Shown one piece after another: positions 1,959-60,540 of a stretch of 64,000 nucleotides of DNA. The DNA comes from Phycisphaerae bacterium. Its GTDB lineage: Bacteria > Planctomycetota > Phycisphaerae > UBA1845 > PWPN01. The stretch lies in NCBI GenBank assembly GCA_012729395.1, contig JAAYDF010000056.1, forward strand, positions 1 through 64,000. The letters are read 5' to 3'. The notes below the pieces were generated by a model. It ran no database searches. It was not told the DNA's origin and saw only the letters and a program-made list of their open reading frames with translations. The number at the start of each line of letters is the position of its first letter. Position 1 is the stretch's first letter. The translations under genes were made by a program, and so were the position numbers.

Positions 1959-2052
1959 TGTGGCACCGCTCCGCGGCCGTGCGGCCCGGGGTGTGGCGGA
2001 GCGGCCCAGGGTGTGGCACTGCTCTGTGAGCAGTGCATGCGTGCATGGCCTT
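1959..2052. repeat. family A palindrome with tandem GTGTGGC leads
   Basis: A perfect family A hairpin lies at 2016-2036: stem GCACTGCTC, loop TGT, stem GAGCAGTGC, followed by ATGCGTGCATGGCC. It is preceded by further partial copies of the lead GTGTGGC at about 1960 and 1991. It sits between the truncated pilin-like ORF and the rlmN-type gene. Confidence 0.7.
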
Positions 2053-3228: not shown

Positions 3229-3427
3229 GTGGGCTGAAGCCCACGGCTCTTTGGGACCGCGGCCAGCAGCATCCGCACATCGGTCAGGTGGAGATACGGA
3301 AGCCGGTCAGGTGGAGGCACGGAGGCGGGGCGACCGGCGGCAACAAACAGAGCCGCGACCGTAAGGAAGCGGTTCCCCCTTGGCGGAATACTCGCTTCGC
3401 AACCACCGCCCCCTTGCGGTCGCGGCC
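3229..3427. repeat. small hairpin plus degenerate family B element
   Basis: Positions 3229-3246 form an 8-bp hairpin (CGTGGGCT, loop GA, AGCCCACG). Positions 3348-3374 carry a clear family B left arm (CAGAGCCGCGACCGTAAGGA, then AGCGGTT). A diverged right arm (ACCGCCCCCTTGCGGTCGCG, then GCC) is at 3405-3427. The block fills the space between the convergent rlmN and the Cys-cluster gene. Confidence 0.65.
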
Positions 3428-3436
3428 CGTCAGTGC

Positions 3437-3960: not shown

Positions 3961-3992
3961 CACGCGAAACACTGCTCGCAGAGCGGTGCCGC
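3961..3992. repeat. degenerate family A palindrome
   Basis: On the minus strand this reads as a family A element. The arms CACTGCTC and GAGCGGTG (3970-3988) flank GCA, and the characteristic CGCG flank is at 3962-3965. One arm carries a G that breaks a pair. It sits between the two YkgJ-like genes. Confidence 0.55.
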
Positions 3993-4625: not shown

Positions 4626-4774
4626 GTGTGGCCTTGCTTCGTGAGCAATGCCCAAAAACCACAATCGTGTGGCACTGCTCTGTGAGCAGTGCACGCGTGC
4701 AGGGCTTACTCGACCATGATGGCCGGCAGTGTCCACCCGAACGGCGAGCAGTGCACGCGTGCAGGGCTTACTCG
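4626..4774. repeat. cluster of three family A copies
   Basis: Copy one (4626-4651) is degenerate. Copy two (4672-4692) is a perfect 9-bp stem with TGT loop. Copy three is a half element. A 29-base block beginning GAGCAGTGCACGCGTGCAGG is repeated without change at 4684-4712 and 4746-4774, so this is a recent local duplication. The cluster lies between the 3' end of the GH116 gene and the 5' end of the second YkgJ-like gene. Confidence 0.75.
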
Positions 4775-12311: not shown

Positions 12312-12380
12312 CAGAGCCGCGACCGTGAGGGAGCGGTGGCTTTGATAGCGAAGAACCGCTTCCTTACGGGCGCGGCTCTG
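12312..12380. repeat. family B inverted repeat between convergent genes
   Basis: The left arm (12312-12337, CAGAGCCGCGACCGTGAGGG, then AGCGGT) and the right arm (12355-12380) are near-perfect inverted copies with about three mismatches over 26 bases, around a 17-base loop. It lies 8 bases after the beta-helix gene stop and 27 bases before the end of the convergent minus-strand gene. It may act as a bidirectional transcription stop, but there is no T-tract. Confidence 0.8.
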
Positions 12381-17694: not shown

Positions 17695-18354
17695 TCAACC
17701 GGCGACGATCGCGGCGCGTTGTGCGTGGAGCCAGGCGAGCCATTCGTCGATGCCCTCGCCGGTCTTGGCCGACAGGGGGATGAGCGGGGCACGCGTGTTG
17801 AGCCGGGCGAGATCCTCGCGCACACGATCGACGCGAAAGTCGAGCACGCCGAGCAAATCCACCTTGGTCAGTAGGATCACGTCCGCTTGTTGGAAGAGGG
17901 TGTAGTACTTGGCGACCTTGTCGTCGCCTTCGGGCACGCTGAGCAGGACGACCTTGCGGTGCTCGCCGAGGTCGAACGCCGCCGGGCAGACCATGTTCCC
18001 CACATTCTCGATAAACAGGAAGGCGAGCGACTGTAAATCGAGTCCGGCGAGGGCCTCGGCCACCTGCGTGGCGGAGAGGTGGCAGCCGGTGCCGGTGTTG
18101 ATCTGCGTGGTGTGCACGGCCAAGTCGCCGAGCCGCTCAGCGTCGCGGGTGGTCTGCAGGTCGCCGACCAGCACGCCGCACGGATGCCGCGGGCCCAGTA
18201 GGGGGATGGTCTTTTCGAGCAGGGTGGTCTTACCGCTGCCGGGGCCGCTCATCAGGTTGAGAGCTAACAGACCGGCCTGCTGCAGGGTACGGCGGATCGC
18301 GGCGGCCACCGCGTCGTTGGCTTTCAGCACACTCTCGACTACGTGAATCTTCAT
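17695..18354 (-). CDS. hypB: hydrogenase nickel-insertion GTPase HypB
   Basis: A 219-residue SIMIBI GTPase that works with HypA to deliver nickel to the large subunit of [NiFe]-hydrogenases. G1 is GPGSGKTTLLEKT. The conserved metal-site Cys/His lie in NTGTGCHL, and the switch-region Cys in FIENVGNMVCP. The nucleotide-specificity motif is TKVD. The N-terminal CxxCGC and His-rich nickel-storage regions found in some species are absent, so this is the short form. It overlaps hypA by 4 bases and is the last gene of the hypF-C-D-E-A-B operon. Confidence 0.95.
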   Translation of the reverse strand: MKIHVVESVLKANDAVAAAIRRTLQQAGLLALNLMSGPGSGKTTLLEKTIPLLGPRHPCGVLVGDLQTTRDAERLGDLAVHTTQINTGTGCHLSATQVAEALAGLDLQSLAFLFIENVGNMVCPAAFDLGEHRKVVLLSVPEGDDKVAKYYTLFQQADVILLTKVDLLGVLDFRVDRVREDLARLNTRAPLIPLSAKTGEGIDEWLAWLHAQRAAIVAG

Positions 18355-18722
18355 GGCAGCGGGGTCTCCGCGGGAGTATCACATTCAACAGCCTTGAGCA
18401 CAATCTCGTGCCCGGCGATTATCTCCACGTCGGCCTGTCCGCACGATGGGCAGGCAAAACTCAGAGCCGTCAGGTCCGGCTCGAACTCTCGCCCGCACGG
18501 TCGGCATAACGCGACCGCCGGCCGCACGGTTTGGCTCAGAACCGCGCCCTCGGCCAGGGTGCCCTCGGCACACGCCTCGAACGCCAAGTCCAGGGCCTCG
18601 GGCACCACCTGTTTGAGTGCTCCGAGTTCGACCTCGATCGCGGTGATGCGCGCGGCCCCGTGCTGCATGGCTACGGCGGCGGCCTGGTCAACGATCGCCA
18701 TGGCAATGGTCGCCTCATGCAC
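18351..18722 (-). CDS. hypA: hydrogenase nickel-insertion protein HypA
   Basis: A 123-residue protein with N-terminal MHE, whose His2 is the nickel ligand in the family. The zinc loop has two CxxC pairs: CRPCGREFEPDL...CPSCGQ. It delivers nickel with HypB. Translation starts at GTG 18722 (then CAT GAG), with GAAGGA seven bases upstream. It overlaps hypB by 4 bases (ATGA-type), indicating translational coupling. A 205-base stretch separates it from hypE and holds repeat family C and a 21-bp tandem array. Confidence 0.95.
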   Translation of the reverse strand: MHEATIAMAIVDQAAAVAMQHGAARITAIEVELGALKQVVPEALDLAFEACAEGTLAEGAVLSQTVRPAVALCRPCGREFEPDLTALSFACPSCGQADVEIIAGHEIVLKAVECDTPAETPLP

Positions 18723-18776
18723 GGGCGGATTCCTTCAACGAAACGCTACGCGGCGGCGGCGCCTGCACGCTTGTCC

Positions 18777-18826
18777 CGCGAAGCGGCAAGCCGGTCCGTG
18801 AGTCTTGCTCGCGAATCATGGATGCT
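18777..18826. repeat. dispersed repeat family C, copy 2
   Basis: The core CGCGAAGCGGCAAG at 18777-18790 is followed at a similar distance by CGCGAATCATGGATG, matching copy 1 at 1549-1597 in both blocks. It lies between hypE and hypA inside the operon. Confidence 0.55.
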
Positions 18827-18829
18827 ACT

Positions 18830-18935
18830 CATACGCGCCGGCTCAGCATTTCGAACGCGCCGGTTACGCGCTCGTATGTGCCGGCTCATCGCTCATACGC
18901 GCCGGCCCATTACGCATACGCGCCGGCTCAGCAGA
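18830..18935. repeat. 21-bp tandem array running into the hypE stop
   Basis: Five units with core CATACGCGCCGGCTCA begin at 18830, 18852, 18873, 18894 and 18915. The period is therefore 21 bases (22 once), about two helical turns. Units two and three are diverged. The last unit overlaps the 3' end of hypE: the hypE stop (18928-18930) lies inside the unit. No coding role is apparent. Possible roles are a protein-binding array or plain slippage. Confidence 0.75.
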
Positions 18936-19944
18936 TTCGCGGGAGCTCCTCACCGTAGGGGCGCTGCACGAGCCGTCGCCCGCCGCTGCGGGTCACCAGT
19001 TCCACCAGCGGCGGCTGGGCCTCCAGTACATGCCCCACGACGGCCGCATGCTTTCCGAGCGGATGCTCGCGGCACGCGGCCAGCGCACGATCCGCGTCTT
19101 CGGGCGGCACGACCACGACGACCTTGCCCTCGTTGGCGACCAGCAGGGGGTCAAGGCCTAGCAGCTCGGCCGTGTGCCGGGCGATGCCGGTCATGGGGAT
19201 CGCCCGCTCCTCGACGCATACGGTCATTCGGGTCGCCTGGCACAGGTCCGCGAGCACGCCCGCCAGCCCACCGCGCGTCGGGTCGCGCATGAACTTCAAA
19301 TCGACCCCGGCGGCATACAACCGATCGATCAGCCCGTTGACCGGGGCTACGTCGCTGCGCAACTGGGTTTGCAGGCCGAGACCCTCGCGGGCACACATCA
19401 CCGCCAGTCCGTGCTCGGCGATCCGGCCGGTCACGATAACCGCGTCGCCGGGCGCGACGCGGCCGAGATCCAGCCGGACTCCGCCGCGAAGCTCGCCCAC
19501 GCCGGCCGTGGTGATGATGAGCCCGTCGCCACGCTGGTGTTCGACCACCTTGGTGTCGCCGGTGACGATGTTCACACCGGCCTCACTGGCGGCGGCAGCG
19601 ATCGAGTCGATGACCCGATCGAGCAGCGAGAGCGGCAGGCCCTCTTCGAGGATCACTGCCAGGCTTAAGGCTCGCGGGACGGCCCCCATGACCGCGAGGT
19701 CGTTGACCGTGCCGCAGACCGCCAGTCGGCCGATGTCGCCGCCGGGAAACTCGATCGGTTGAACCACGTGGCTGTCGGTGGTGAAGGCCAGACGGCCCGG
19801 TGGCAACTCCAACAGGGCGCTGTCGCCGAGCGGGTCGAGTAGCGGATTGCCCAGCCGAGGCAGGAACCGCTCGGCAATCAGCCGCTGCGTCAGTTCGCCG
19901 CCGCCACCGTGGGCGAGCACAATCTGGTCGTTCGGGTCGCTCAT
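18928..19944 (-). CDS. hypE: carbamoyl dehydratase HypE
   Basis: A 338-residue PurM/ThiL-like ATP-using enzyme. It converts the carbamoyl group placed by HypF on its C-terminal Cys into a thiocyanate, the source of the cyanide ligands of the Fe site. The essential C-terminus PRIC is intact. Motifs: LAHGGGGELTQRLI near the start, FTTDSHVVQPIEFPGGDIGRLAVCGTVNDLAVMGA, and MRDPTRGGLAGVL. It overlaps hypD by 4 bases. The gene end falls within a 21-bp tandem array unit. Confidence 0.96.
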   Translation of the reverse strand: MSDPNDQIVLAHGGGGELTQRLIAERFLPRLGNPLLDPLGDSALLELPPGRLAFTTDSHVVQPIEFPGGDIGRLAVCGTVNDLAVMGAVPRALSLAVILEEGLPLSLLDRVIDSIAAAASEAGVNIVTGDTKVVEHQRGDGLIITTAGVGELRGGVRLDLGRVAPGDAVIVTGRIAEHGLAVMCAREGLGLQTQLRSDVAPVNGLIDRLYAAGVDLKFMRDPTRGGLAGVLADLCQATRMTVCVEERAIPMTGIARHTAELLGLDPLLVANEGKVVVVVPPEDADRALAACREHPLGKHAAVVGHVLEAQPPLVELVTRSGGRRLVQRPYGEELPRIC

Positions 19945-21017
19945 GCGTTCGTGTGACCGTACTTATACCACGCCGCGCAGGTTCCTTCACTGCTGACCAT
20001 GCACGGGCCGATCGGGGTGGCCGGTGTGCAGCGGCTCGCGAAGAGGCCGCAGTCGGTGGGCACGGCCTTGCCCTGGATGACCTCGCCGCACTTGCAGCCG
20101 GGCGGGTCGTAGTCCGGGCCGATGGCCAGCCCGAAACGCTTCAGGGCGTCGAATCGCCGGTATGGCGGACGCAGAGCCAGGCCGCTGACAGGGATGGTCC
20201 CCATGGCGCGCCAGACCGTGTCGGCGGGCTCGAAGACCTCCGCGATGCAGGCTCGGGCGGCCGGGTTGCCCTCGGGACGCACGGCGACACCGTAAGCGTT
20301 TTCCAGTCGCGGCCGGCCGTCGGCGATCTGCTCGAGCAGGTGGGCGATCGCGGCGAGAAGCTGCTCCGCCTCGAAGCCGGCCACCACGCAGGGTTTGCCG
20401 AACCGCTCGACGATCGGCCGGTAGGGCTCCATGCCGATCACCACGCTCACGTGGCCGGGCAGCAGAAATCCGTCCAGGGGCACATCGCCGGCCGACAGGA
20501 TCGCGTTCAGGGCGGGCATCACCAGTTTGTGCCCCATGAGCAGGGTGAAATTGTCGAGGCCCTGGGCATGGGCTTCCATGACCGCCGCCGCACTGGCCGG
20601 CGCCGTGGTCTCAAACCCGACGGCGAGGAACACGACTTGACGGTCCGGGTGCTCCCGTGCGTGCCGGACGGCGTCGCGTGCGGAGTAGACGACGACGATG
20701 CGGCCCCCCTCCGCTCGGCGACGCTCCAGACTGCCGGTCGCGCCGGGTACACGCACCATGTCGCCGTAGGTGCAGACGGTCACGTCAGGCCGACCGGCGA
20801 TCTCGCAGGCCGCGTCGATGTAGCCCTGCGAGGTGACGCAGACCGGGCAGCCCGGGCCGCTGATCAGCCGAACGCCGGCCGGCATGAGCGACTTGACCCC
20901 GCTGCGAAACAGCGAGACGGTGTGCGTTCCGCAGACCTCCATGATCCGGGCTTCGCCAACCCGCTCGGCCAGGCGGCAGATGCGCTCCGCGAGCGGCGAT
21001 CTCGTCGGCTGGATCAT
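19941..21017 (-). CDS. hypD: hydrogenase Fe-cofactor assembly protein HypD
   Basis: A 358-residue Fe-S scaffold for Fe(CN)2CO assembly, acting with HypC and HypE. Conserved motifs: IMEVCGTHT (Cys for iron binding), SGPGCPVCVTSQGYID, VGFETTAP, and the C-terminal [4Fe-4S] cysteines in PPGCKCGEVIQGKAVPTDC...CTPATPIGPCMVSSEGTCAAWYKY. It overlaps hypC and hypE by 4 bases each, so hypC-D-E are tightly coupled. Confidence 0.96.
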   Translation of the reverse strand: MIQPTRSPLAERICRLAERVGEARIMEVCGTHTVSLFRSGVKSLMPAGVRLISGPGCPVCVTSQGYIDAACEIAGRPDVTVCTYGDMVRVPGATGSLERRRAEGGRIVVVYSARDAVRHAREHPDRQVVFLAVGFETTAPASAAAVMEAHAQGLDNFTLLMGHKLVMPALNAILSAGDVPLDGFLLPGHVSVVIGMEPYRPIVERFGKPCVVAGFEAEQLLAAIAHLLEQIADGRPRLENAYGVAVRPEGNPAARACIAEVFEPADTVWRAMGTIPVSGLALRPPYRRFDALKRFGLAIGPDYDPPGCKCGEVIQGKAVPTDCGLFASRCTPATPIGPCMVSSEGTCAAWYKYGHTNA

Positions 21018-21274
21018 GGGCTCAGCTCCCCGGGAATCTCATCGACCAGCTCGGCCTCTTGGAGGTATTTCCAGGTTTCCGCGGCCTCGGTCTCGTCGAG
21101 CACGTTCAAGGCAAAGCCCGCGTGCACCAGAACCCAGTCGCCGACCCCCGCCTGGGGCGTGAAGGACAGCCCTACCTCGACACGCGTGCCCTGAAAGTCG
21201 ACCGTGCCCACCCGCGATACGGGGCCGTCGCCCTCGCGAACCTCGATGATCTTGCCCGGTACCGCCAAACACAT
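21014..21274 (-). CDS. hypC: hydrogenase assembly chaperone HypC
   Basis: An 86-residue chaperone of the HypC/HybG family, starting MCLAVPGKIIEV. Cys2 becomes N-terminal after Met removal and binds the Fe(CN)2CO group and the hydrogenase large-subunit precursor. The start at ATG 21274 is supported by GGAGA. It overlaps hypD by 4 bases. The 165 bases between hypF and hypC hold a family B inverted repeat and part of a family A palindrome. Confidence 0.95.
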   Translation of the reverse strand: MCLAVPGKIIEVREGDGPVSRVGTVDFQGTRVEVGLSFTPQAGVGDWVLVHAGFALNVLDETEAAETWKYLQEAELVDEIPGELSP

Positions 21275-21348
21275 GGCTCGATTCTCCAAGACTGCACACC
21301 CGTAGCGCTCGCCCCCCCCGCCACGGCGGGCAGGCTGCGGCGACCGGG

Positions 21349-21410
21349 CAGAGCCGCGACCGTCAGGGAGCGGGGCATGCGAGAACCGCTTCCTGACGGG
21401 CGCGGCTCTG
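21349..21410. repeat. family B inverted repeat upstream of hypC
   Basis: Arms 21349-21373 and 21386-21410 are 25-base inverted copies with two mismatches around a 12-base loop. It lies within the hyp operon between hypF and hypC, so it would fold in the polycistronic mRNA. Confidence 0.8.
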
Positions 21411-21420
21411 CTGGGCGACC

Positions 21421-21460
21421 ACGCACGCGAAAGCACTGCTCACAGAGCAGTGGCACACGG
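21421..21460. repeat. family A palindrome supplying the hypF stop codon
   Basis: On the minus strand this is a family A element with 21433-21453 as the hairpin: stem GCACTGCTC, loop ACA on the plus strand, then GAGCAGTGG. Read in the hypF frame, the element encodes the last residues PCATAL, and its TGA (21442-21440) ends the protein. The normal end of hypF has therefore been replaced or extended by the repeat. Confidence 0.75.
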
Positions 21461-24064
21461 GACGCTGACACGCGACGAGACGCGGCCCTGCCGGGCGGCC
21501 ACCACCGCCTGGCCCAAGGCCAGCCCGCCATCGCCGGCAGGTACCTGACGGTGCGTGAGAACCTCATGTCCCCGGACCGCCAGCAGATCGTAGATGCGAT
21601 CGCTCAAGAGCGAATTCGCGAAACACCCGCCGGTGAGTATCACCCGGTTGAGCCCCCGTTCCCGAGCCACGTGATCCGCAGCCTCAACCAACATTGTAGC
21701 GATTGTCTCGTGAAATGCTCGCGCCAGCGACGCCGGATCGGCGCCCGCCCGCTGACGACGCAGCAACTCGGCCAACATGGGGCGCGCATCGAGAACGAAC
21801 GGGCCGCCGCCCTCAGACGCTGCTTTCTCCTCAGAAGGTGTGCACGATGCCTGCTCAGAGCCGCGACCGTCCTCAGAGCCGCGACCGTCAGGGAGCGGTT
21901 CTTCTCCGCAGCGACCAACCGCTCCTCGACAGTCGCGCCTCTGATACGCTGCGATCTTCTCCGGTATCCTCGTATGGGGCAGAATCTCCGCGGCGGGCAC
22001 ACGGCTCGCGATCGCTTCAAGGATCATCGCCGCCTGGGCCTCGCAGCGGTTCTCGTCGCATAAATCCATCAGAAACGCGACCGCGTCAAACAACCGCCCG
22101 AGGCTCGATGTGGGCACGCCGCTTGCCGTGTGTCGCAATCGCTGCGCGGCGATAGCGAGGGCCTGTGGATCCACCCGCGCGAACGCCTCCGGGGCCAGCT
22201 CCGCAAACGGGCCGTCGCTCATCCGCGAGAGCAGTCCCGCCGCCGGTCGCCACGTCTGCCGAGCCCCCGCGTCGCCGCCCAGTAACGGGAAGTATTGCAG
22301 ATGCGCCGCTCGCTCGAAGCCCGCCTCGTCGGCAACGAGTACCTCGCAACCCCACACGGCTCCGTCCGGCCCGTAGCCCGTGCCGTCGCACGAAACGCCG
22401 ACCACCGGTTCGGTCAGCCCATGCTCGGCCATGCAGGCGACCACGTGGGCGTGATGATGCTGCACCTCGACGACCGGCAGACCGAGTTGCCGGGCATATC
22501 GCGTGGCCGCGTAGTCCGGGTGCATGTCACAGGCCACCACTTGCGGCTCGACACGCAACAAGCGCTTGAACTGCTCAATCGTGTCCACGAAATGCCGATA
22601 GGCCTCGGCATTCGACAACTCGCCCAAGTGTTCACTGACCACCGCTTGCCGACCGGCCAGCAGGCAGACGGTGGACTTCAACTCGCCACCGACGGCCAGC
22701 ACAGGCCGCGGCGATTCAAACGCCAGCTCGATCGGGGCCGGGGCGAATCCCCGTGCTCGCCGAATCGGCAGGGCGGGTACCTCCGGCCGACCGGAAGCCA
22801 GCACCACCGAGTCGTCCACCCGGCGGGCGATCTCGCGGTTGTGCATCAGGAACACGTCAGCCAGGCCTCCCAGTCGCCGCAACGCCTCGTCGTTGTCGCA
22901 GCACAAAGGCTCCTCAGACGGGTTCCCGGAAGTCATGACCAAAGGCGGCAACCCCTCCGCAAAGAGCAGGTGATGCAACGGCGTATACGGCAGCATCAGC
23001 CCGATCCGATCCAGTCCCGGCGCCACCTGCCGGGAGAGAGGTCGTGCATCACCGCTCTGCAACTGCCTGTCACTGTCTATCATTCGTGTGGCACTGCCCT
23101 GTGAGCAGTGCGGAACGCGTGTAGGCGCTCCCATGTCGCTGCCCTGTGACCAGTGTCCATCCCGCATCGCCACCAGCACGATCGGCCGCTCAACGCGACT
23201 CAACTCCGCTATGGCCGCCTCGTCAATGACCGCCAGCCGCTGGGCCTCTTCGAGCGAGCCAACCATCACCGCCAGCGGCTTGGCTTCGCGCCCTTTGCGC
23301 TCCCGCAGTCGGGCCACCACCTCGTCGTCATCCGCCCGGCAGGCCAGATGAAAACCGCCCAGCCCCTTGATCGCCGCGATCTCGCCTTTCCGCAGTCGCT
23401 CCGCGCATTCACGGATGGCATCACCCTCCAGTTCCCGCCCAACCGCGTCCGTCAGCCATACCCGCGGCCCGCAGACCGGACAGGCGTTCGGCTGGGCGTG
23501 GAACCGCCGGTCGGCCGGGTCGTCGTATTCCGCCTGGCACTGCGGGCACATGACGAACGAGCGCATGGTCGTGTTCGGCCGGTCGTACGGCACCGCCTCG
23601 ATGATCGAGTATCGCGGGCCGCAGTTCGTGCAGTTGGTGAACGGGTAGCGATATCGCCGATCCGCCGGGTCGTGCAATTCCCGCAGGCAGTCGGCACAAG
23701 TGGCCACGTCGGGCGTGATCTCGGCATCCTGCACACCGTTCCGCTCGCTGGCTTCAATGTGAAACGCGGTCTCGTGTCGCGCGGGGATCGCCGTGCGGAT
23801 CAACTCGGAGATGCGGGCTAGCGGCGGCAGCTCAGCCTGCAACCGGGCGACGAACCGCTCGATGCTCTCTGGTGGCCCCTCGATCTCGATGAACGCTCCG
23901 CGGCTGTCATTGCCGACCAGCCCCGCGAGCCCGAGATCCCGGGCCACCCGATAAACAAACGGCCGAAACCCCACGCCCTGCACACGCCCACGCACGTCCA
24001 GCCGCTGCCGCGTTCGCGTATTATCCTCTCGTGGTTCGCCCATGTCTGCCTGCCGACCCGTCAT
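21440..24064 (-). CDS. hypF: carbamoyltransferase HypF with repeat-encoded insertions
   Basis: An 874-residue enzyme that makes the carbamoyl group for the CN ligands of [NiFe]-hydrogenase. Order: acylphosphatase domain (about 20-110, GRVQGVGFRPFVYR), two zinc fingers (CADC..CTNC at 123-148, CPQC..CPVC at 173-198), a YrdC-like domain (about 210-440, KGLGGFHLACRA, LPYTPLHHLL, MTSGNPSEEPL), and a Kae1-like domain (450-860, HHHAHVVACMAEHG, SCDGTGYGPDGAVWG, GGCFANSLL). Two stretches are foreign: residues 301-346 (DGHWSQGSD, VPHCSQGSATR) encoded by family A palindromes, and residues 705-752 (EEPLPDGRGSEDGRGSE) encoded by family B. The C-terminus PCATAL also comes from a palindrome. Key motifs are intact. 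Confidence 0.95.
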   Translation of the reverse strand: MTGRQADMGEPREDNTRTRQRLDVRGRVQGVGFRPFVYRVARDLGLAGLVGNDSRGAFIEIEGPPESIERFVARLQAELPPLARISELIRTAIPARHETAFHIEASERNGVQDAEITPDVATCADCLRELHDPADRRYRYPFTNCTNCGPRYSIIEAVPYDRPNTTMRSFVMCPQCQAEYDDPADRRFHAQPNACPVCGPRVWLTDAVGRELEGDAIRECAERLRKGEIAAIKGLGGFHLACRADDDEVVARLRERKGREAKPLAVMVGSLEEAQRLAVIDEAAIAELSRVERPIVLVAMRDGHWSQGSDMGAPTRVPHCSQGSATRMIDSDRQLQSGDARPLSRQVAPGLDRIGLMLPYTPLHHLLFAEGLPPLVMTSGNPSEEPLCCDNDEALRRLGGLADVFLMHNREIARRVDDSVVLASGRPEVPALPIRRARGFAPAPIELAFESPRPVLAVGGELKSTVCLLAGRQAVVSEHLGELSNAEAYRHFVDTIEQFKRLLRVEPQVVACDMHPDYAATRYARQLGLPVVEVQHHHAHVVACMAEHGLTEPVVGVSCDGTGYGPDGAVWGCEVLVADEAGFERAAHLQYFPLLGGDAGARQTWRPAAGLLSRMSDGPFAELAPEAFARVDPQALAIAAQRLRHTASGVPTSSLGRLFDAVAFLMDLCDENRCEAQAAMILEAIASRVPAAEILPHTRIPEKIAAYQRRDCRGAVGRCGEEPLPDGRGSEDGRGSEQASCTPSEEKAASEGGGPFVLDARPMLAELLRRQRAGADPASLARAFHETIATMLVEAADHVARERGLNRVILTGGCFANSLLSDRIYDLLAVRGHEVLTHRQVPAGDGGLALGQAVVAARQGRVSSRVSVPCATAL
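21856..21951. repeat. family B element inside the hypF coding region
   Basis: Within hypF, CAGAGCCGCGACCGT occurs twice in tandem (from 21861 and 21878). It is followed by CAGGGAGCGGTTCTTC, and an imperfect right arm (CGCTCCTCGACAGTCGCGCC) ends near 21947. On the minus strand it encodes EEPLPDGRGSEDGRGSE. The surrounding insert (about residues 705-752, nt 21809-21952) keeps the frame and lies between two conserved blocks of the Kae1-like domain. Confidence 0.75.
23086..23156. repeat. two family A copies inside the hypF coding region
   Basis: Copy one (23091-23111) keeps GCACTGC and GCAGTGC as 7-bp arms. Copy two (23135-23155) is diverged (CGCTGCC...ACCAGTG). On the minus strand they encode HWSQGSD and HCSQGSATR, two related peptides in the inserted segment of the YrdC-like domain. 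The open frame is kept. Confidence 0.7.
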
Positions 24065-24094
24065 CCGTGCGATCCTACCGCGGCCACTGGCCCT

Positions 24095-24156
24095 CGACCG
24101 TAAGGGAGCGGTCGCACGCTGCCATGAGGAGCCGCTTCCTTACGGTCGCGGCTCTG
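24095..24156. repeat. family B inverted repeat upstream of hypF
   Basis: The arms CGACCGTAAGGGAGCGG (24095-24111) and CCGCTTCCTTACGGTCG (24132-24148) differ by one base. The right side continues into CGGCTCTG (24149-24156), whereas the left arm lacks the matching CAGAGC. It lies 31 bases upstream of the hypF start. Confidence 0.75.
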
Positions 24157-24253: not shown

Positions 24254-25516
24254 TCACGGCAAGCGTTCGAGCCGATAGACCGCACCGGCGGTGAGCTTGG
24301 CGGTCAGCGGCGCCCCGAGCGGGGTGCGGCCGTCCTCGGCGAAGATGGCGAGTCGGCCCTCGACGTCGCTCTGCTTGCCCATCGAGATGATCTGGCGATC
24401 GGGGCCGAGAGCACGGTCCGCCTCGTGGTCGTGCCCCTCACCGTCGGTGAGCACGAGCTTCTTTTGCAGCCAGCGGGCGAACAGCCGATTGCGGTCCAGG
24501 CTGGAGATCGCCCCCGCCCCATAGAGCACGCCAAGCACCCGCCCGTCGCGGATGACCCATCCGGCGGCCACGATGTACCGATCGGCTTCATCGAGGTTGC
24601 CGAGCATCTCCCGCGGCTCGGCGAACGCCATCCCGTCATTCGACAGGGCGTACCACAGCTTGTCCCGGTTAGCGTGTAGAGCCATCAGGTACCAGGGCTT
24701 GCCGCCCGAGGTGAGCTTCTTCACGTCATTGACCATCCGCGGCACGTCCAGACAGAGCCCCTCATAGCGAAACCGCCGACCGTCTACCTGCACCGCCCGA
24801 TGCACCTTGAGGCCGTCGCGGAAGTTGCCGAAGTAGAGGTACAGACGCCCGTCATCGTGCAGCAGCACGTTGATCCCATTGATGTCCGCCGACTTGTACA
24901 GGGCATGGCCCTCTATCTCGATAACATCATCCTTGCGGGCCGGGTAGGGGGCGGGCGTGCCGTTCCAGGTCGCCCCGTCCGGGCTGGTGAACAAGGCCGG
25001 CTTGTTGAGCCCCGCCGCGTCCGGGTAGGCCGTGCAGACCATCCGGTAGCTGCCGTCGGGCAGGCGAAGGGCGTTGACGTTGCACACGTGGACGAACGGC
25101 CCGTGCTCGATATCCGTGCGTGGTTCGCCAAAGTCGACGAAGTCCGTCGTCCAGCGGCTGAAGATCCGGTCGTTGCCGGTGGGCACGCCGTCCCAGGCGC
25201 CGTAGTAGAGACGCCAGCCGTCTTCCAGTTCCACCGCGCTGGGGGCGTAGATGTTGCGGAATGCTCCCGCCAGTCGCGGGCGGATCAGCGGGTGCCGGGC
25301 GTCAGGCAGCAGATGAAGCGTGCCCGCCTCCCAGATCGCCGCGTCGAACGTTCCCGCGGCCGTGCCCTGGATCTCGACCGTGCCCAACTCCGCCTGCCCG
25401 GGCACACGCACCAGCCGAAACATCGGCTCCGCCAAACTCGCGGACGTCATCGTCATCGTCCACAGCGCGGCCAGCCCGACCGCCGTCATCCGCGTGATGG
25501 GTTGTTTCATTCGCAC
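24254..25516 (-). CDS. secreted beta-propeller glycosidase-like protein (GH43/GH32 superfamily-like)
   Basis: A 420-residue exported protein with signal peptide (MKQPITRMTAVGLAALWTMTMTSASLAEP). The body looks like a five-bladed beta-propeller of the GH32/43/62 type: NIYAPSAVELEDGWRLYYGAWD, GPFVHVCNVNALRLPDGSYRMVCTA, ALFTSPDGATWNG, DGRLYLYFGNF, and LWYALSNDGMAFAEP. The pattern of W/YYxG and SxDG repeats supports the propeller. I chose GTG 25516 because GGAGG lies eight bases before it; ATG 25510 is two codons later. The catalytic acids and the substrate cannot be assigned with confidence. Confidence 0.65.
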   Translation of the reverse strand: MRMKQPITRMTAVGLAALWTMTMTSASLAEPMFRLVRVPGQAELGTVEIQGTAAGTFDAAIWEAGTLHLLPDARHPLIRPRLAGAFRNIYAPSAVELEDGWRLYYGAWDGVPTGNDRIFSRWTTDFVDFGEPRTDIEHGPFVHVCNVNALRLPDGSYRMVCTAYPDAAGLNKPALFTSPDGATWNGTPAPYPARKDDVIEIEGHALYKSADINGINVLLHDDGRLYLYFGNFRDGLKVHRAVQVDGRRFRYEGLCLDVPRMVNDVKKLTSGGKPWYLMALHANRDKLWYALSNDGMAFAEPREMLGNLDEADRYIVAAGWVIRDGRVLGVLYGAGAISSLDRNRLFARWLQKKLVLTDGEGHDHEADRALGPDRQIISMGKQSDVEGRLAIFAEDGRTPLGAPLTAKLTAGAVYRLERLP

Positions 25517-25659
25517 CGGGTGGTCCTCCCAAGAGTAACATGACAGCGCTGCTTTGTTGCGGCCACCGCCTCTGGCGGCCGTTGGGCGGAGATAGAACCT
25601 CAAAAGACGTTCAGCGCTACCATGTGAAGCTCGCCGTTCGTGCTCCGCCCGGCCGCACC

Positions 25660-27675
25660 TTACTCGCTCGCGCCGTCGGGTTCCAGAACAACATAGCCAA
25701 ACGGCGGCACGGTAATCGGCGCCTCAAACCGATCCCCGCGCGGGCGGCAGGGCCAACCGCGCGGCCGATAGGGCAGCCGAACAAGCAGTGCCTGCGGAAC
25801 ATCGGTGTTGTTGTAGGCGAGGTTCCCACTGATCGAAGCCTGCTCCATGTGGTCGCCGAGGTAGCGCGTCGCGATGCGAGGTTTCGGGTCGGGCACGCGG
25901 TACTCCACGCCCGCGTGATCCAGGATGTTTCTCATGAGCCTTTGCCCGACGCGGTTGGAGGGGTGGGTCGAGCTGTACGGACCCCACATGTCCACCTCGT
26001 TGGCGGAGGCGTCCGCCGATCCGCCGCGATCCGGAGGCGTGCGTTGGGGGTCATAGGACAGGCCGGCGAACACGTGACCATGAACATAGACAAGCCGGCC
26101 GTTATCGGCCGTGGACAGCAGCGTCCGATCGCCACAGGCCAGCCACGGCCGCACCATCACGGGGGCCTCGACGTACTCGAACGTCTCGTCTTCCGGCAGA
26201 ACCACGCCCTCCTCGCCGAGTCCGTGCGTCAACGTATGCTCCGCGACAACACGCATCTCGCCCGCGGGCCGGCGCAGGTAGCGAACCCGCACACCATCGA
26301 TCGTGCGCTGCCCGCCTTCAGGAACGAGTTCCGCGTCCAGCGATCGGCCGAAACTGCCCGTCAAGAGCACGGTGGCCGAGCACTGCTTCAACCGGCCCAA
26401 CGTCTCAGACAGCAGGTACGCCGCACAGGGCACGATGATCAGCCGGTAGCGATCCAACTCCGCGACGGTCATCTTGTCCAAGGCCGGCGAGCCGCAACGC
26501 CGAAGCTGGCATCCGAACATCCGCAGGAGCACGTCGATGGTCATCGCGTCGACCGCGTGCGCGGGCCCCTCGCTCAACGCGGCCGCGGCATAGGTCGGAA
26601 ACACCAGCAACACATCCCGCTGCACAACTTCCAGGGGCGCGTCATGCAGCCGCTTGAGGTACGGCGCGAACCGATCCTCCCACGCGTCAAAACCCACGGC
26701 AGCCGCCTTCTCCGGCGACCAGCCATAGTTCTTTACCGCGTAGTCGTTGGACAGTTGGCAGCCCATGAACCGTTGCCCCTCGCCGCGCTTACGGGCCAGA
26801 AGTGGCAGGTAGTAGTCGCGGTAGCTGTCTGCCGAGTCGCAGCGGTAGCGAAACCCCATCGTCTCGGCCAGCGTGCTCTCGGGGCGATGCGAGGTCTGGA
26901 ACGGGAAGCACGACTCGTACAGCGCGAAGTCCGCCGTGGGCACCGCGACCATGGTCCACAGGTAGCCGACCACCGGGTACAGCTCCTGCCACGTGCCCAC
27001 CGGTTTGCCGCCCGCTCGCGTCTTCAGCCGTCGCATGATCCCGTCGAACTGCTCCTCCATGTAGACATAGCGGAAGCGGATGAAGCGGTTGCACTCGGTA
27101 TTCGGCCCTTCGCGGCACGTGGGGATCGCCTCCACCGGCGACCAGCCCTGCCGCTTGCGCCATTCGTTGAACCGGGCCAGGGCATGGTCGCTCCGGCCGG
27201 CCGCGAAGCTGATGAACCCCGCCTCGCCGTAGATCCCCCACGTCGGCACGAAGGCGATGACGTCCGGGTCGCGGTGATAGCGGTCAATGATTTGACCATA
27301 GGCCCACTCGAGTCGCGCCATCGCTTCCGGCCAGAAGGGATCGAGCTGGTTCGGCAGCTTCTTGCCATCCTCGTCGATGTCGAAGTACGCGCCTGTGCCC
27401 AGCCCAGCCTCGCCCAGAATCGCCACCATGCTCTTGAGCCCATAGCGCCGGGCGAGGGCCAGACGTTCATCAAGCAGCTTAAAGTCAACGCCGCTGTGGT
27501 CCGGTACCGGGGTGGGCCGAATCTTCCACAAAACCGTGTCAAAACCCGCCTTCGCCGCCTCCGCCATCTGTTCGTCGGTCGCCCCGGTCATGGGTAACCA
27601 GACGAGATGCTCGCCCAACGGCCACGAGGCGTCCGGCGCGATTAGCATCAGGCCGGCCAGCAGGGCCCAAGGCAT
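25660..27675 (-). CDS. secreted GH42-like glycoside hydrolase
   Basis: A 671-residue protein with a hydrophobic leader (MPWALLAGLMLIAPDASW). The N-terminal part is a TIM barrel: GFDTVLWKIRPTPVP, LKSMVAILGEAGLG, VIAFVPTWGIYGEAGF (the Glu here is a candidate acid/base) and YESCFPFQTSH. The second half has a Rossmann-like trimerisation-type domain (RDVLLVFPTYAAAAL, YRLIIVPCAAYLLSETLGRLKQC, VLLTGSFGRSLDAELV) and a C-terminal beta domain (PPFGYVVLEP). The layout resembles GH42 beta-galactosidases, but the specific family is uncertain. It sits in a row of three secreted sugar-active genes. Confidence 0.65.
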   Translation of the reverse strand: MPWALLAGLMLIAPDASWPLGEHLVWLPMTGATDEQMAEAAKAGFDTVLWKIRPTPVPDHSGVDFKLLDERLALARRYGLKSMVAILGEAGLGTGAYFDIDEDGKKLPNQLDPFWPEAMARLEWAYGQIIDRYHRDPDVIAFVPTWGIYGEAGFISFAAGRSDHALARFNEWRKRQGWSPVEAIPTCREGPNTECNRFIRFRYVYMEEQFDGIMRRLKTRAGGKPVGTWQELYPVVGYLWTMVAVPTADFALYESCFPFQTSHRPESTLAETMGFRYRCDSADSYRDYYLPLLARKRGEGQRFMGCQLSNDYAVKNYGWSPEKAAAVGFDAWEDRFAPYLKRLHDAPLEVVQRDVLLVFPTYAAAALSEGPAHAVDAMTIDVLLRMFGCQLRRCGSPALDKMTVAELDRYRLIIVPCAAYLLSETLGRLKQCSATVLLTGSFGRSLDAELVPEGGQRTIDGVRVRYLRRPAGEMRVVAEHTLTHGLGEEGVVLPEDETFEYVEAPVMVRPWLACGDRTLLSTADNGRLVYVHGHVFAGLSYDPQRTPPDRGGSADASANEVDMWGPYSSTHPSNRVGQRLMRNILDHAGVEYRVPDPKPRIATRYLGDHMEQASISGNLAYNNTDVPQALLVRLPYRPRGWPCRPRGDRFEAPITVPPFGYVVLEPDGASE

Positions 27676-27740
27676 GATTCATCGCTCCTCTCGGCCACGT
27701 CGAGCGGCCTCATCGGCGGGAACCGTGCTCAAGCTTCGCC

Positions 27741-30281
27741 TCACCGTCCCGCGGTCAGTACGCCCTCCGGCAGCGGAATGGCGTTGGCGGGTCGTGTGTA
27801 CTCCGGCGAAGCAACCAGCCTCCAGGACCACGCGCCCGGACCCGGCGGGAAGAACACCCCCCGGTGGTACGCACCGCCCAGCCGTCGCAGCGGCAAACGC
27901 TGAGCCTCAGCTTGCGGCTGATCCAGGTCCACCAACTCGATGTGGAAGCCCGCCTCCGCCGATGTCGGCAACAACACCGCGTCGAAATTCACAGCCTCAC
28001 CGCTCGATACACGGTTGGGCACCGGGAAAACGGTCAGCACCTCGCCACCTTCCCATGCCACATTGCCACGAGCTTCTGGAAGCGGTTCTCCCAGGATCCG
28101 CCCAATCCGCTCGATAAAGCACGCGTAATACCGCCCATACCGAGCGTTCGCCGTCGCCAGCATGCCCAACTCACCCCGCGTGCGGCAGGTGGTCGCCAGG
28201 GCCCGCATCGCCGACGCAAAGTCGTATCGCTCCAAGTCGCGCAGCACGCTGCGGGCCGCTTCGCGAGCTTCCGCCTGTTGCCCGTCGGTATACAGCTTCT
28301 CCGCTTGGCGAAGAGCCTCCTCAAGCGGCGCGGCATCACCCCAGATCGCCAACCCGACCCGGGCTCGCTTCACCAGCCACTCGATCGTGCGAGCCAGGTC
28401 GTGGTACGCCACCGCCGCATGCCGACGCCCATCCTCCGCCGCCTTGAGACTGCGGTCCAGCAGGTCGCCGGCCAACGCATCCAACTCGCCGAATCGTTCC
28501 GGATCGGGCAGGATACCGGCCATGTTCGGCTTGCGGCTCAGTAGCGGACTCCGGCCGCCGCAAAACCAGCCGAAAAACTTCGACCCACATTCCACCGTCC
28601 CAACCGCACCAACATACTGCGGCCCCAACTCCTCCAAACGCAGGTGGACGCTCGTCATCCGATCCACGTCCTCCGGAGCGTACTGATCCCGTACATATTG
28701 CCGCAAAAACTCCGTCGCGCTCAGGCCGTCGTTCCAGCCGAACCGATACAGGTAGCCGGCCACATCCTCCACGTTGCGGGTCCGCCAGTGAATGCCCAAG
28801 GCACCCTCGCACCCCTTGCGGGCGATATCCTTCAGCAGCGGCTCAAACGCGGTCACGTTGGTCTGCGGCCCGGTCTGATCGATGCGAGTATGCCCCGCGT
28901 CCGACTCGAACCAGGGGATGGGCCAGCACGCTCGCCCGGGCTGCAACTGGCCGTAGACCTCCGAGACGTGGTCCGCGTGTCGCGGGTCGATGTTGTCCAA
29001 CGCCGCGAAGATGATGTCCGCGGGCACCACCTTGTCCAGGCCACTGTAGTAGTCCGTGAACCGCATGTGCTGGTCGCCACCCCACCCGCTGACCACCATG
29101 CGTACCTCCGGCCGGACCGCCCGCATGGCCTCGTACGATAGCCGTACATGCCGAGCCATCCGTACCCCTTCCGCCTGGTGCTTGCTGTCCGGCAAGTAGG
29201 CGAACGCGTCCCAGAGCTCCTTCGCGTCGCTGGCCGTGTCACCCTCTCGCGTGCCGGTCGCACCGGCGAGGCCCAGATGCTCCGCCTGCCAGATCCCCAG
29301 GTAGTCCAGCGGGTAGGTCTCCAGAACGTGCGTGATTCGCCGTCGGAGCTGCTCTCCCACCTCCTCGTCCAGCGGGTCACCACTGACCTCGAAGCCTAGG
29401 CACGTCGCCAAGCCCAGCGACCGGGCATAGGTCAGGGCGTCGGCCATCATCCGCTGCTGCCAGCGCGTCGCCCGGCCCGGAGCGAACGTCCACCCTTGCT
29501 CGACGCCCACTTCGCAACCCCACTCCCCGCGGTCGAAAAACAAGCCCGTGCCGAACAGGTGATCCTTGGTCGACATCGCGTGAGGCGACCACCAGCGATG
29601 CTCCGAGATCGTGGTCATCAGCGGACCACCCATCGTCACCTTGTAATCCGTGATGTCGTAACCGCAGAACGGCTCGTGGTCATAGACGTGGAAACTGACC
29701 AGATTGGCCTTCTGCTTGGCCATCTGAGCGAAGAAGGTCTTGTAGTCCTGTGGATTCCACGTCGTCGGGCTGTTCAGAAAGTTGAACCAAGGCAGATTGC
29801 CGCGGATGGCGAGCACGGGGCGATATCGGCCCTCGACCAGCTCAACCATCTGGGGTGGGTTGCGACGCGGCACAGCATCACCGCCCAGGTAGAACCCTAC
29901 GCCCCAGCTCTCAATCAGCGTGTATGCCGCCCACAACGTCGCCCGTGCGGATGCCCCGTGTACGACCTGTTGACCGCCCTCGATGTACAACGCGAAGTTC
30001 TGAATGGGGTCGGGGCCGTCGCCCGGCACGAGCTCGCCCGAGCCGGTCCGCAACACAATGGCCGGCCTTCCCGCCGTCGGACTCGTCGCCAGTACCGGCC
30101 AAATCCCTGTCAACTGGCGAATGTATCCCCGTAGCTCGTCCGCCGCCAAGTAGACCATCGGATCCTGCTTGTCGGCCGCCACCACAGTGACGTCCGCCAA
30201 GCGATACGGTGCCGCCCACGCCGCCGTCTTCACCAGCAGCAGGAGGATCGTGGTGATCGCCAACTGACGCCGCAGCTTCAT
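27741..30281 (-). CDS. secreted alpha-glucuronidase-like (GH67/GH20-type) protein
   Basis: An 846-residue exported protein with signal peptide (MKLRRQLAITTILLLLVKTAAWAAP). The N-terminal domain is of the GH67/GH20 accessory type (VVAADKQDPMVYLAADELRGYIRQLTG, ASARATLWAAYTLIESWGVGFYLGGD). A TIM-barrel region follows (RGNLPWFNFLNSPTTWNPQDYKTFFAQMAKQKANLVSFHVYDHEPF, LGIWQAEHLGL, MVVSGWGGDQHMRF, ALGIHWRTRNVEDVAGYLYRFGWN). A helical C-terminal part and a beta tail complete it. Related proteins act on uronic-acid or hexosamine-containing polysaccharides. No catalytic assignment is attempted. Confidence 0.65.
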   Translation of the reverse strand: MKLRRQLAITTILLLLVKTAAWAAPYRLADVTVVAADKQDPMVYLAADELRGYIRQLTGIWPVLATSPTAGRPAIVLRTGSGELVPGDGPDPIQNFALYIEGGQQVVHGASARATLWAAYTLIESWGVGFYLGGDAVPRRNPPQMVELVEGRYRPVLAIRGNLPWFNFLNSPTTWNPQDYKTFFAQMAKQKANLVSFHVYDHEPFCGYDITDYKVTMGGPLMTTISEHRWWSPHAMSTKDHLFGTGLFFDRGEWGCEVGVEQGWTFAPGRATRWQQRMMADALTYARSLGLATCLGFEVSGDPLDEEVGEQLRRRITHVLETYPLDYLGIWQAEHLGLAGATGTREGDTASDAKELWDAFAYLPDSKHQAEGVRMARHVRLSYEAMRAVRPEVRMVVSGWGGDQHMRFTDYYSGLDKVVPADIIFAALDNIDPRHADHVSEVYGQLQPGRACWPIPWFESDAGHTRIDQTGPQTNVTAFEPLLKDIARKGCEGALGIHWRTRNVEDVAGYLYRFGWNDGLSATEFLRQYVRDQYAPEDVDRMTSVHLRLEELGPQYVGAVGTVECGSKFFGWFCGGRSPLLSRKPNMAGILPDPERFGELDALAGDLLDRSLKAAEDGRRHAAVAYHDLARTIEWLVKRARVGLAIWGDAAPLEEALRQAEKLYTDGQQAEAREAARSVLRDLERYDFASAMRALATTCRTRGELGMLATANARYGRYYACFIERIGRILGEPLPEARGNVAWEGGEVLTVFPVPNRVSSGEAVNFDAVLLPTSAEAGFHIELVDLDQPQAEAQRLPLRRLGGAYHRGVFFPPGPGAWSWRLVASPEYTRPANAIPLPEGVLTAGR

Positions 30282-30641
30282 CGTGAGCCTCCCTGTCGAT
30301 CAACAGTGGTACGCCCGCCATTGTGTCCGAGCCCTCATCCACTCGCAAGCAAACCTCCTTGAAACGCCGGACGGTCCGACGGCGCAGGGGCACCGATGCC
30401 TCCTTCGGTTCGTGGCCCCCGCGGGCGGTCCCGCTCGGCGAAGAGCGGGGATGATCCGCTTGAACCTGGCAGAATGGCTTCTGCTCGTTGTGCTCAGCAA
30501 TCTCGTTGCGTTCTTGCAGGCTTGATCGGGCGCGCACAGCCAACGCAATCCGTTCACATGCCTCAGCAGCCCGCGAGCGAGCCCGCAGTCCGATGCGGAC
30601 CCATTCGCTCAGATGTCAAAATGAAGAAACGGTCCACCCAG
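30282..30641. other. intergenic region without recognisable features
   Basis: This 360-base stretch lies between panD (minus strand) and the start of the alpha-glucuronidase-like gene. I see no gene, tRNA or repeat family member. A GCGGGCGGTCCCGC hairpin near 30422 is the only clear structure. Confidence 0.4.
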
Positions 30642-30995
30642 TCACTTAGCCACCGGGCGGTTGTGGGCGTCGACGTGGACGATGATCGGCTTGTGTTGCC
30701 GAGCGTCCTTGTCGTCGACCTGGCAGTAAGTCAGGATGATCAGCAGATCACCCGGAACACCCATCCGGGCGGCGGGCCCGTTCAGCATGACCGTCCCAGA
30801 CCCCGCCGGTGCGGTAATGATGTAAGTCGTCAACCGGGCACCGCTGTTCACGTTCAGCACGTGCACCTGCTCGCCGGGCAGCATGTCCGCCTTACGAAGC
30901 AGATCCTCATCGAGACTGATGCTGCCCTCATAGTTGAGCTCACAGCCGGTGAGAGTTGCCCGGTGGATCTTCGATTTCAGCATGAAACGTTGCAT
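30642..30995 (-). CDS. panD: aspartate 1-decarboxylase
   Basis: A 117-residue pyruvoyl enzyme making beta-alanine from aspartate for pantothenate. The self-cleavage site Gly24-Ser25 (NYEGSISLDE) falls at exactly the usual position counted from ATG 30995, which supports this start. Other marks: MLKSKIHRATLTGCELNY, GARLTTYIITAPAGSG, LNGPAARMGVPGDLLIILTY. It lies downstream of serC, lgt and panC on the same strand. With panC it covers the two last steps of pantothenate synthesis. Confidence 0.95.
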   Translation of the reverse strand: MQRFMLKSKIHRATLTGCELNYEGSISLDEDLLRKADMLPGEQVHVLNVNSGARLTTYIITAPAGSGTVMLNGPAARMGVPGDLLIILTYCQVDDKDARQHKPIIVHVDAHNRPVAK

Positions 30996-31248
30996 GGAAT
31001 TCCCAGCCGGTGCCCTGCGGCTTGTCCCGGCTCAAAGCCCCTTCAGTATGACGTTCGGGCGGTCGGTGACTACAAACATCACCGATCGCCCGAAGATTAT
31101 ATCCCCATCTGCTGCAGTTCGCCAAACAGCCTGAAAGCTCAAGCTGTGGCAGATGCCTGCCCGCCGTAGCGGGCGTCCCGCCGGCACAGGCCGGGGAGTT
31201 TCTCCTTGGCCAGAGCTGTGTTGCCGATCACCTGGCTAAAACCACTAC

Positions 31249-32412
31249 CTACCGCGGCCGCTGGCTCTCGTAGGCCCACAGCAGCCAGTCCAACGCCATC
31301 GCCGTGTCCTTCGGATCGACCGTCGGCCCACCCCAGAAACGGAAGCCCGGCGGTGCGTCCCGGTAGGCCCCGCAATCATAGACCACGCCCTCGGCCTCCA
31401 AAGCCCCAGCTACCTTCTTGCAGAACGCCCCCTGATCTTCCGGGCTCAGCCGGCCGAACCAGTCCGCCGTGATCTTCAGACAGATCGAGGTGCAACTCCG
31501 GATCTCCGGACGCACCGGCAAAAAGTCAATCCAGTCCTGCCGGGCGACGAAGTCCGCGACCACCTTCAGATTCTCCGCACTCCGGGCGAAAAGGGCGTCC
31601 AAACCCTGCTTCCCGCCGTGAGTCAGGCTCATGGACCACTTCAACGCGTCGATGTAGTCCTCCGTGGCCAGCATCGACGGCGTGTTGATCGTCGAGCCTT
31701 CATACACGTCCTTGATCAGCTTGCCGCCCTTGGTCAGCCGGAAAATCTTCGGCATCGGCCAAGCAGGCACGTAGCTTTCCAGCCGCTCCACAGCCCGCGG
31801 CGAGAGCACCAGCATGCCGTGCGCCGCCTCGCTCCCCAGGCTCTTCTGCCACGACCAAGTCACCACGTCCAAACGCTCCCACGGCAAGGGCATGGCGTAG
31901 ACCGCACTCGTCGCGTCGCACAGCGCCAGACCCTGCCGGTCGGCCGGCGGAGCAAAAGCGTCCGGAACCTTCACGCCGCTGGTCGTCCCGTTCCAGGTGA
32001 ACACCACGTCGTGGCTCCAATCCACCTTGCCCAAGTCGGGAAGCTCACCGTACGGGGCCTTCATCACGTTGGCGTTCAGCTTGAGCTGCTTGTTGATGTC
32101 CGTGACCCAGCCTTCGCCAAAACTCTCCCAGGCCAACGCGGTGATCGGCCGGGCACCCAACAGGCTCCACATCGCACACTCGAACGCCCCCGTGTCGCTG
32201 GCCGGCACGATCCCCGTCAGGTAACCCTTCGGGATCCGGGCCAACTCCGCGGACAGGTCGATCGCCTGCTTCAGGCGGGCCTTCCCGCCCTTGGCTCGGT
32301 GCGACCGACCGAGCCAAGCATTCGACAGAACGCCGGGATTCCAGCCGGGACGCTTGCACGTCGGGCCGGAGCTGAAGTTCGGGCTGGCGGGTTTAGACTG
32401 AGGCTTCTCCAC
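31249..32412 (-). CDS. serC: phosphoserine aminotransferase (Methanosarcina-type SerC)
   Basis: A 387-residue class V PLP aminotransferase of serine biosynthesis, converting 3-phosphohydroxypyruvate and glutamate. It resembles the divergent SerC subfamily: [14 protein letters not shown] at the N-terminus, [34 protein letters not shown], and the PLP lysine in [27 protein letters not shown]. The GTG start at 32412 is chosen because GAGGAGAGA stands about seven bases before it. Confidence 0.88.
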
Positions 32413-32695
32413 GATGAGTCTCTCCTCATGGCAACGCTCGGCGACCGGGCTACCGCAGGTGGACACGCCCACAACGGCTGGCCGTCGATACCTTCCCATC
32501 CCCCAATCGGCGAGGCACACGCTCCCCCGGATGGGTAAGGGAATGGACTACTTTATCTTGCCCCGGCCCGGCGTTCAAGGCTGCCAACCCTGCCGCCCCG
32601 AGCCCATGTCCGCGCCAGCCAATGTGACCCGCACAACTCGCCGGAACCAGTAGCTGTTCAACTCGCCAGGGCCAATAATATGCAGCAACCAGGGC

Positions 32696-53023: not shown

Positions 53024-53065
53024 ACGCACGCAACCGCACTGCTCACAGGGCAGTGGCATGCCAGG
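53024..53065. repeat. family A palindrome between galK and trpD
   Basis: On the minus strand a near-perfect family A element: hairpin 53036-53056 with arms GCACTGCTC and GGGCAGTGG around ACA on the plus strand, and the typical GCGTGCGTGGCC-type flank (53021-53032 on the opposite strand). It begins 7 bases past the galK stop and lies upstream of trpD. Confidence 0.7.
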
Positions 53066-60185: not shown

Positions 60186-60365
60186 CGTGTGCAGAGCCTG
60201 CGTGCGTAGATCCTTCGTGCGCGGACTGTTTGTGTGCGGATTGTCCGTGCCCGGATTGTTTGTGTACGGATTGTCTGTGTGCGGGTTTGCCGTGTTCAGA
60301 TTGCCCGTGCACAGATCCGTCGTGTGGAGATCTTTCGTGTGGAGATCTTCCGTGTGGCACTGCTC
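60186..60365. repeat. exact 15-bp tandem array ending in a family A palindrome
   Basis: Twelve consecutive 15-base units start at 60186, 60201, 60216 and so on to 60351, with consensus YGTGYNCRGATTGTY. Unit sequences vary but the period never slips. The twelfth unit, CGTGTGGCACTGCTC, is itself the lead and left arm of a family A palindrome. No reading frame through it looks like a real protein (Cys-rich on plus, His/Ser-rich on minus). Confidence 0.85.
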
Positions 60366-60390
60366 TGTGAGCAGTGCGGTATGCGAGCGG
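60351..60390. repeat. family A palindrome after the 15-bp array
   Basis: A perfect hairpin at 60357-60377: GCACTGCTC, TGT, GAGCAGTGC, with the standard CGTGTG lead and a GGTATGCGAGCGGG flank. Confidence 0.75.
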
Positions 60391-60495: not shown

Positions 60496-60540
60496 GGAGC
60501 CGCGCCCGTGAGGAAGCGGTTCTTCGCGGTCGTGGCTTCA
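60496..60540. repeat. partial family B element at a gene break
   Basis: The left arm GGAGCCGCGCCCGTGAGGAA, then GCGGTTCTTCGC (60496-60527), is followed by a short right-arm-like CGTGGCTTC. An in-frame stop for the following HEAT-repeat frame lies three bases beyond (60543-60545), which suggests that the element replaced the 5' end of that gene. Confidence 0.6.

Follow-up and report, generated by a model that had tools for sequence, protein, structure and literature searches.

Transposase-linked palindromic repeats in frame within HypF of a Phycisphaerae bacterium

Palindromic repeats that lie in frame within proteins are already known, as are class-3 REPs in planctomycetes. A CnGA foot has been given for the REPs of class-3 TnpA_Y1/RAYT transposases, a class reported from Planctomycetes and Acidobacteria (Quentin et al., 2018; PMC6006769); in the same study, unusually long proteins were set aside as fusions or annotation errors. 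In-frame REPs, including some in the PVC member Opitutus terrae, were reported by Di Nocera et al. (2013; PMC3733652), who also assign a CGTC foot to the palindromic elements (RPEs) of Rickettsia conorii.

The window analysed here is a 64,000 nt stretch of DNA from a Phycisphaerae bacterium (contig JAAYDF010000056.1), and its hypF gene contains two in-frame inserts, at about residues 302-341 and 701-750, built of palindromes that are repeated throughout the genome (Table 1). A sequence-only reading had described residues 301-346 and 705-752 as foreign to the HypF family. The inserts exist, with limits somewhat different from those proposed, and their coincidence with family A palindromes and a family B element was borne out by mapping of the units in both.

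Table 1. Genes, inserts and repeat units in the window (position 1 is its first nucleotide)
Feature	Position	Strand	Details
hypF	21440-24064	-	874 aa; ORF, Pfam domains and alignment of 30 orthologues
Insert 1, HypF residues ~302-341	23042-23161	-	In loop flanked by PIVLV and VAPGLDRIG; contains two directly oriented family A units
Family A unit in insert 1	23092-23110	-	1 mismatch to CACTGCTCACAGAGCAGTG; then CCACACG
Second family A unit in insert 1	23137-23155	-	More diverged, 3 mismatches
Insert 2, HypF residues ~701-750	21815-21964	-	Linker inside Kae1-like domain; family B REPIN
Family B unit in insert 2	21872-21898	+	Exact consensus GAGCCGCGACCGTCAGGGAGCGG; hairpin 21876-21898, CAGA foot at 21872-21875
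Inverted partner of family B pair in insert 2	21919-21941	-	4 mismatches; QRRDCRGAV in HypF frame
Partial tandem family B copy in insert 2	21854-21871	+	18-nt exact repeat of 21872-21889
Family A palindrome across hypF end	21434-21452	+	Supplies last codons and TGA stop (PCATAL*)
Family B inverted pair just downstream of hypF, ahead of HypC domain	21351-21408	+	
Family B inverted pair just upstream of hypF	24089-24154	+	
Intergenic family A unit	2017-2035	-	
Further intergenic family A units	3970-3988, 4673-4691, 53037-53055, 60358-60376		
Intergenic family B inverted pair	12314-12378	+	
Further intergenic family B pair	3350-3428		
Further intergenic family B single unit	60497-60519		
hypC	21014-21436	-	Pfam
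hypD	19941-21017	-	Pfam
hypE-like gene	18928-19944	-	Pfam
hypB-like gene	17695-18354	-	Pfam
Remainder of hyp cluster, downstream of hypF	17695-21436	-	Pfam

When 30 HypF proteins from this genome and its relatives are aligned, the first loop has 51 residues here against a median of 14, and the second 68 against a median of 20. Insert 1 is absent from same-family orthologues, except that one relative (G001) carries an insert of unrelated sequence there, and the columns of insert 2 are empty in most orthologues. Relatives in the same family thus lack both stretches, as expected if these residues are foreign to HypF, and the blocks on either side are conserved, as had been claimed. Solved structures of HypF, 3vth among them, align on either side of both sites and have almost no residues in between (query residues 300 to 342 correspond to chain residues 288 to 292, and 687 to 756 to 629 to 645). 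An AlphaFold model of HypF alone gave a pLDDT of 41, too low to place the inserts; their location in loops is therefore based on length variation among orthologues.

Insertion at two sites, together with a family A stop codon, is unusual for one gene when most copies are intergenic, and could indicate a decaying or non-functional HypF that tolerates any insertion. This is very unlikely, however, as the frame runs for 874 codons without a stop, both insert lengths preserve it, and all catalytic domains are detected (acylphosphatase, zf-HypF, YrdC and HypF_C). The protein also retains 65% identity to HypF of G001 over residues 12-698. Genes for hypC, hypD, hypE-like and hypB-like products follow directly, so the pathway looks intact. 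Upstream of hypF, on the minus strand, are four long ORFs (window 24254-32520; 449, 671, 846 and 423 aa) without a Pfam match.

Both families are dispersed well beyond hypF, and the proposal that the same elements occur between genes elsewhere is confirmed in window and genome alike. The window has 12 matches to family A and 11 to family B, compared with 0 and 0.67 in window shuffles. Genome-wide there are 113 copies of family A (≤2 mismatches) and 71 of family B (≤1 mismatch; 71-172 across stringencies), while reversed-pattern controls gave 0 for each. Because a scan of codon usage was too weak to identify intragenic copies, a Markov gene model was used instead, trained on the 1.94 Mb of genome around element copies from which the intergenic statistics are taken. 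Although genes make up 62% of this sampled sequence, 91 of 103 family A clusters and 90 of 99 family B clusters are intergenic. With more than 85% of clusters between genes and in-gene copies rare, a HypF that holds both families is unusual. Other in-frame family B copies lie in ORFs matching a D-Ala-D-Ala-ligase-type ATP-grasp protein, a SAM-methyltransferase and a phosphodiesterase, and in a membrane protein that has no match in Pfam. A special coding adaptation of the elements was considered and is unsupported: consensus units of A, B and a third family, C (see below), are open in five of six frames, compared with 4.8-5.6 for shuffles.

Each family can be linked to Y1 transposases in relatives. 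In G015, inverted pairs of family A palindromes recur several times with a spacing of 644 nt. At least six of them enclose an ORF that is about 206 aa long, matches Y1_Tnp and contains an HVHLL motif. Family A thus represents the ends of an HUH Y1 transposon, the bounding of a Y1_Tnp ORF being demonstrated in G015 only. In family B, CnGA stands directly 5' of the hairpin in 121 of 135 copies in the window's genome (background 2%) and in 47 of 49 units at RAYT loci of relatives. Neighbouring units are arranged head-to-head (+-) in 60 pairs, against one pair in the opposite arrangement (-+). Family B units flank class-3 RAYT genes in relatives (L189, L197, L206, L209, L216, L222, L225 and L228), whose products have NHVH, W[TA] and Y....Q-type motifs. 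By its foot, pairing, copy number and RAYT linkage in relatives, family B is a REPIN of the class-3 TnpA_Y1/RAYT type.

No A or B ends were found within 1 kb of the Y1 genes of the window's genome. The nearest free class-3 RAYT of this genome (C199) is surrounded by another repeat family, AGCCCCAAGCGCAAGCGAGGG, with 104 copies in the 1.94 Mb sampled. The genome yielded no family B RAYT, as would fit a transfer of repeats to hypF from copies elsewhere in the genome through recombination, gene conversion or repair and not by a Y1 transposase in trans; the additional copies in insert 2, tandem and partial, likewise fit local duplication. Such an origin is unlikely, however, given the conserved element ends with their CnGA foot, the 60:1 head-to-head pairing and the association of A and B alike with Y1 genes in relatives.

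The HypF inserts are very probably non-autonomous, transposase-linked palindromic elements, a pair of A units and a B REPIN, which inserted into hypF loops of variable length, adding multiples of three nucleotides and no stop codon, and were presumably moved by Y1 enzymes in trans. Y1 transposases would move the palindromes as single-stranded DNA, family A presumably by means of a class-2-like Y1 element with matching ends and family B by a class-3 RAYT of the TnpA_Y1/RAYT superfamily. Most copies would survive only between genes, and those within genes only where they are in frame in a tolerant surface loop. To judge from the open frame, the inserts are probably translated as extra, likely unstructured and presumably neutral residues.

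HypF proteins of relatives contain inserts of several kinds. G040 has a family B element at residue 214, with dozens of copies elsewhere in its genome. G037 and G055 have other inserts at residue 448, and the insert of G001 contains GGGGACAGTCCCC palindromes; all of these sequences recur in their own genomes, as does the simple-repeat type of insert in G004. Inserts are also present in G003, G006 and G013. HypF loops are thus recurrent targets.

A larger point, beyond the scope of the earlier reading, is that transposases themselves lie in frame within essential genes. A search for class-3-type RAYTs across the order gave 105 matches, and 28 of the best 35 were in ORFs of at least 500 aa, compared with 0 of 13 class-1-type TnpA controls. 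Pfam places host domains on both sides of Y1_Tnp in a single frame in PurH, AlaRS, ValRS, LeuRS, IleRS and MmeI; the last is a restriction-modification-type protein of 1486 aa (L188/L201/L238). Nine species have a B-flanked RAYT in the same AlaRS loop (L189, L206, L209, L216, L217, L220, L222, L225 and L228). RAYTs are found at other AlaRS sites in L212 and L224, and a single AlaRS ORF of 1686 aa in G025 contains two. In ValRS, RAYTs are in frame at two different loops (L190, L213, L218, L286, L299, L303, L307 and L197). The family B unit of HypF at 21872-21898 is translated as EPLPDGRGSE, and this arm and its partner QRRDCRGAV use the same two reading frames as the ends of the B-RAYT elements in AlaRS and ValRS (PSRDREGA and PLPHGRGSE). 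Full-length class-3 RAYTs in this lineage use the same loop niche in essential enzymes, so the HypF copies appear to be a small version of a wider habit.

In PurH, a RAYT flanked by family C (GAGCCGCGGGCTTCAGCCCGCGCGGT, foot ANGA) occupies the same loop in seven species, the window's genome (G000) included. PurH of G000 (contig C317:39810-42344; L154:8871-11405, L203) is 844 aa long and includes, in frame, a complete class-3 RAYT between inverted repeats of 31 bp that match perfectly (CCAAAGAGCCGCGGGCTTCAGCCCGCGCGGT). It is the sole PurH detected in this genome, which has a completeness of 99.55%. In nine family members the loop has 9 to 27 residues (exactly 9 in eight of them), and in other relatives it contains short repeats or another type of RAYT. 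A Y1 transposase of a different type (LPHWQ...YFVTFRT), with other repeats, is in frame in PurH of L193 and IleRS of L196, and the long PurH loops of L326 and L329 start with sequence resembling it. Between G018 and G022, dN/dS is 0.125 for the embedded RAYT (dS 0.63) and 0.109 for the host PurH (dS 0.60). The similarity of these values indicates that the two were inherited together under constraint; the RAYT embedded in PurH is under purifying selection, as is its host. Correlation of host and RAYT distances supports vertical descent for the PurH clades (r 0.55, p 0.01) and not for AlaRS (r -0.47, p 0.94), where repeated insertion or exchange is possible. An AlphaFold run on PurH-RAYT with four sequences had a pLDDT of 40, too low for use.

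The G000 assembly has 370 contigs, and contigs break at such repeats. Contig C88, for example, starts (L075:1-60) in GCGGCTC repeat-like sequence exactly at the insertion loop of AlaRS, and the N-terminal half of AlaRS was not found in the assembly. An artefact of assembly that joined repeat copies into genes is nevertheless scarcely credible, since the frame is kept at both hypF sites and independent genomes also have inserts of this kind, among them G018 and G022 (PurH), each a single contig, and G015 (ValRS), in seven contigs. A further alternative is that the inserts are spliced out in the manner of inteins or introns, and the embedded elements do occupy essential enzymes, as inteins do. 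This is highly improbable: no Pfam match to a splicing (Hint/intein) domain was found in HypF or the RAYT-bearing enzymes, the insert edges are ragged and differ between species, and the sites are length-variable loops rather than active-site motifs.

In a scan of named genomes, most embedded copies were in MAGs labelled Phycisphaerae; other planctomycetes had free copies. A RAYT in a Planctomycetaceae MAG (L255:3950-5665) forms an in-frame fusion upstream of an EpmA-like (class II aaRS-like) protein, its identity judged by eye. A long antisense host ORF across free RAYTs was also considered; the one candidate, of 1349 aa, looked by eye like a chance frame. There is perhaps an even chance that class-3 RAYTs are long-term in-frame residents of essential enzymes in one Planctomycetota order (relatives labelled Phycisphaerae), chiefly of AlaRS and PurH at fixed loops. 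Insertion would then create a host-transposase chimera in which loss of the RAYT by frameshift or inactivation is blocked, because the host gene would die with it, and REPINs such as that in HypF would be non-autonomous offspring.

In a large environmental phylum, palindromic mobile DNA of identified transposase classes thus probably adds residues to conserved enzymes and is not confined to the spaces between genes. Should the RAYTs within these enzymes prove to be translated and active, essential proteins would serve as refuges for transposases, a niche hitherto associated with inteins. The same interpretation would allow a direct test of how lineage-specific insertion loops arise in proteins, and would provide a defined habitat for class-3 TnpA_Y1, the behaviour of which Quentin et al. 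left open (PMC6006769).

The embedded elements share with inteins their in-frame residence in essential genes at recurrent sites, as seen in the RAYT-bearing relatives, but differ in having no splicing domain, in their ragged edges and in their variable-loop sites. Rickettsia palindromic elements are likewise small palindromes found in frame in conserved proteins and also between genes, and the sequence-only reading had likened the HypF inserts to them. The likeness extends to in-frame insertion in coding genes and to dispersal; the inserts are not RPEs, as the CGTC foot is absent (that of family B is CAGA, and family A has no fixed 5' foot), and families A and B are linked to Y1 transposases and reside in planctomycetes. 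By analogy with Rickettsia, they may still be regarded as protein-coding palindromes, although the elements are REPs and REPINs of known transposase classes. The GTAG/CGTC REPs are also mostly between genes, with some in frame in known proteins, but their feet and sequences are different, and a transposase embedded in a host ORF is not reported in the available text on them (PMC3733652). The view that such families were undescribed in Planctomycetota does not stand as to their kind, since family B belongs with the CnGA-footed class-3 REPs (PMC6006769) and in-frame REPs had been reported by Di Nocera et al. (PMC3733652). No description of RAYTs embedded in essential genes was found in the open-licence literature, and such cases may have been hidden by the exclusion of long proteins noted above. 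Family B shares the CnGA foot, high copy number, hairpins and RAYT linkage of the class-3 TnpA_Y1 elements (PMC6006769). In those elements the REPs flank separate tnpA genes, whereas here the REPs, and in relatives a whole RAYT, lie in frame within host proteins.
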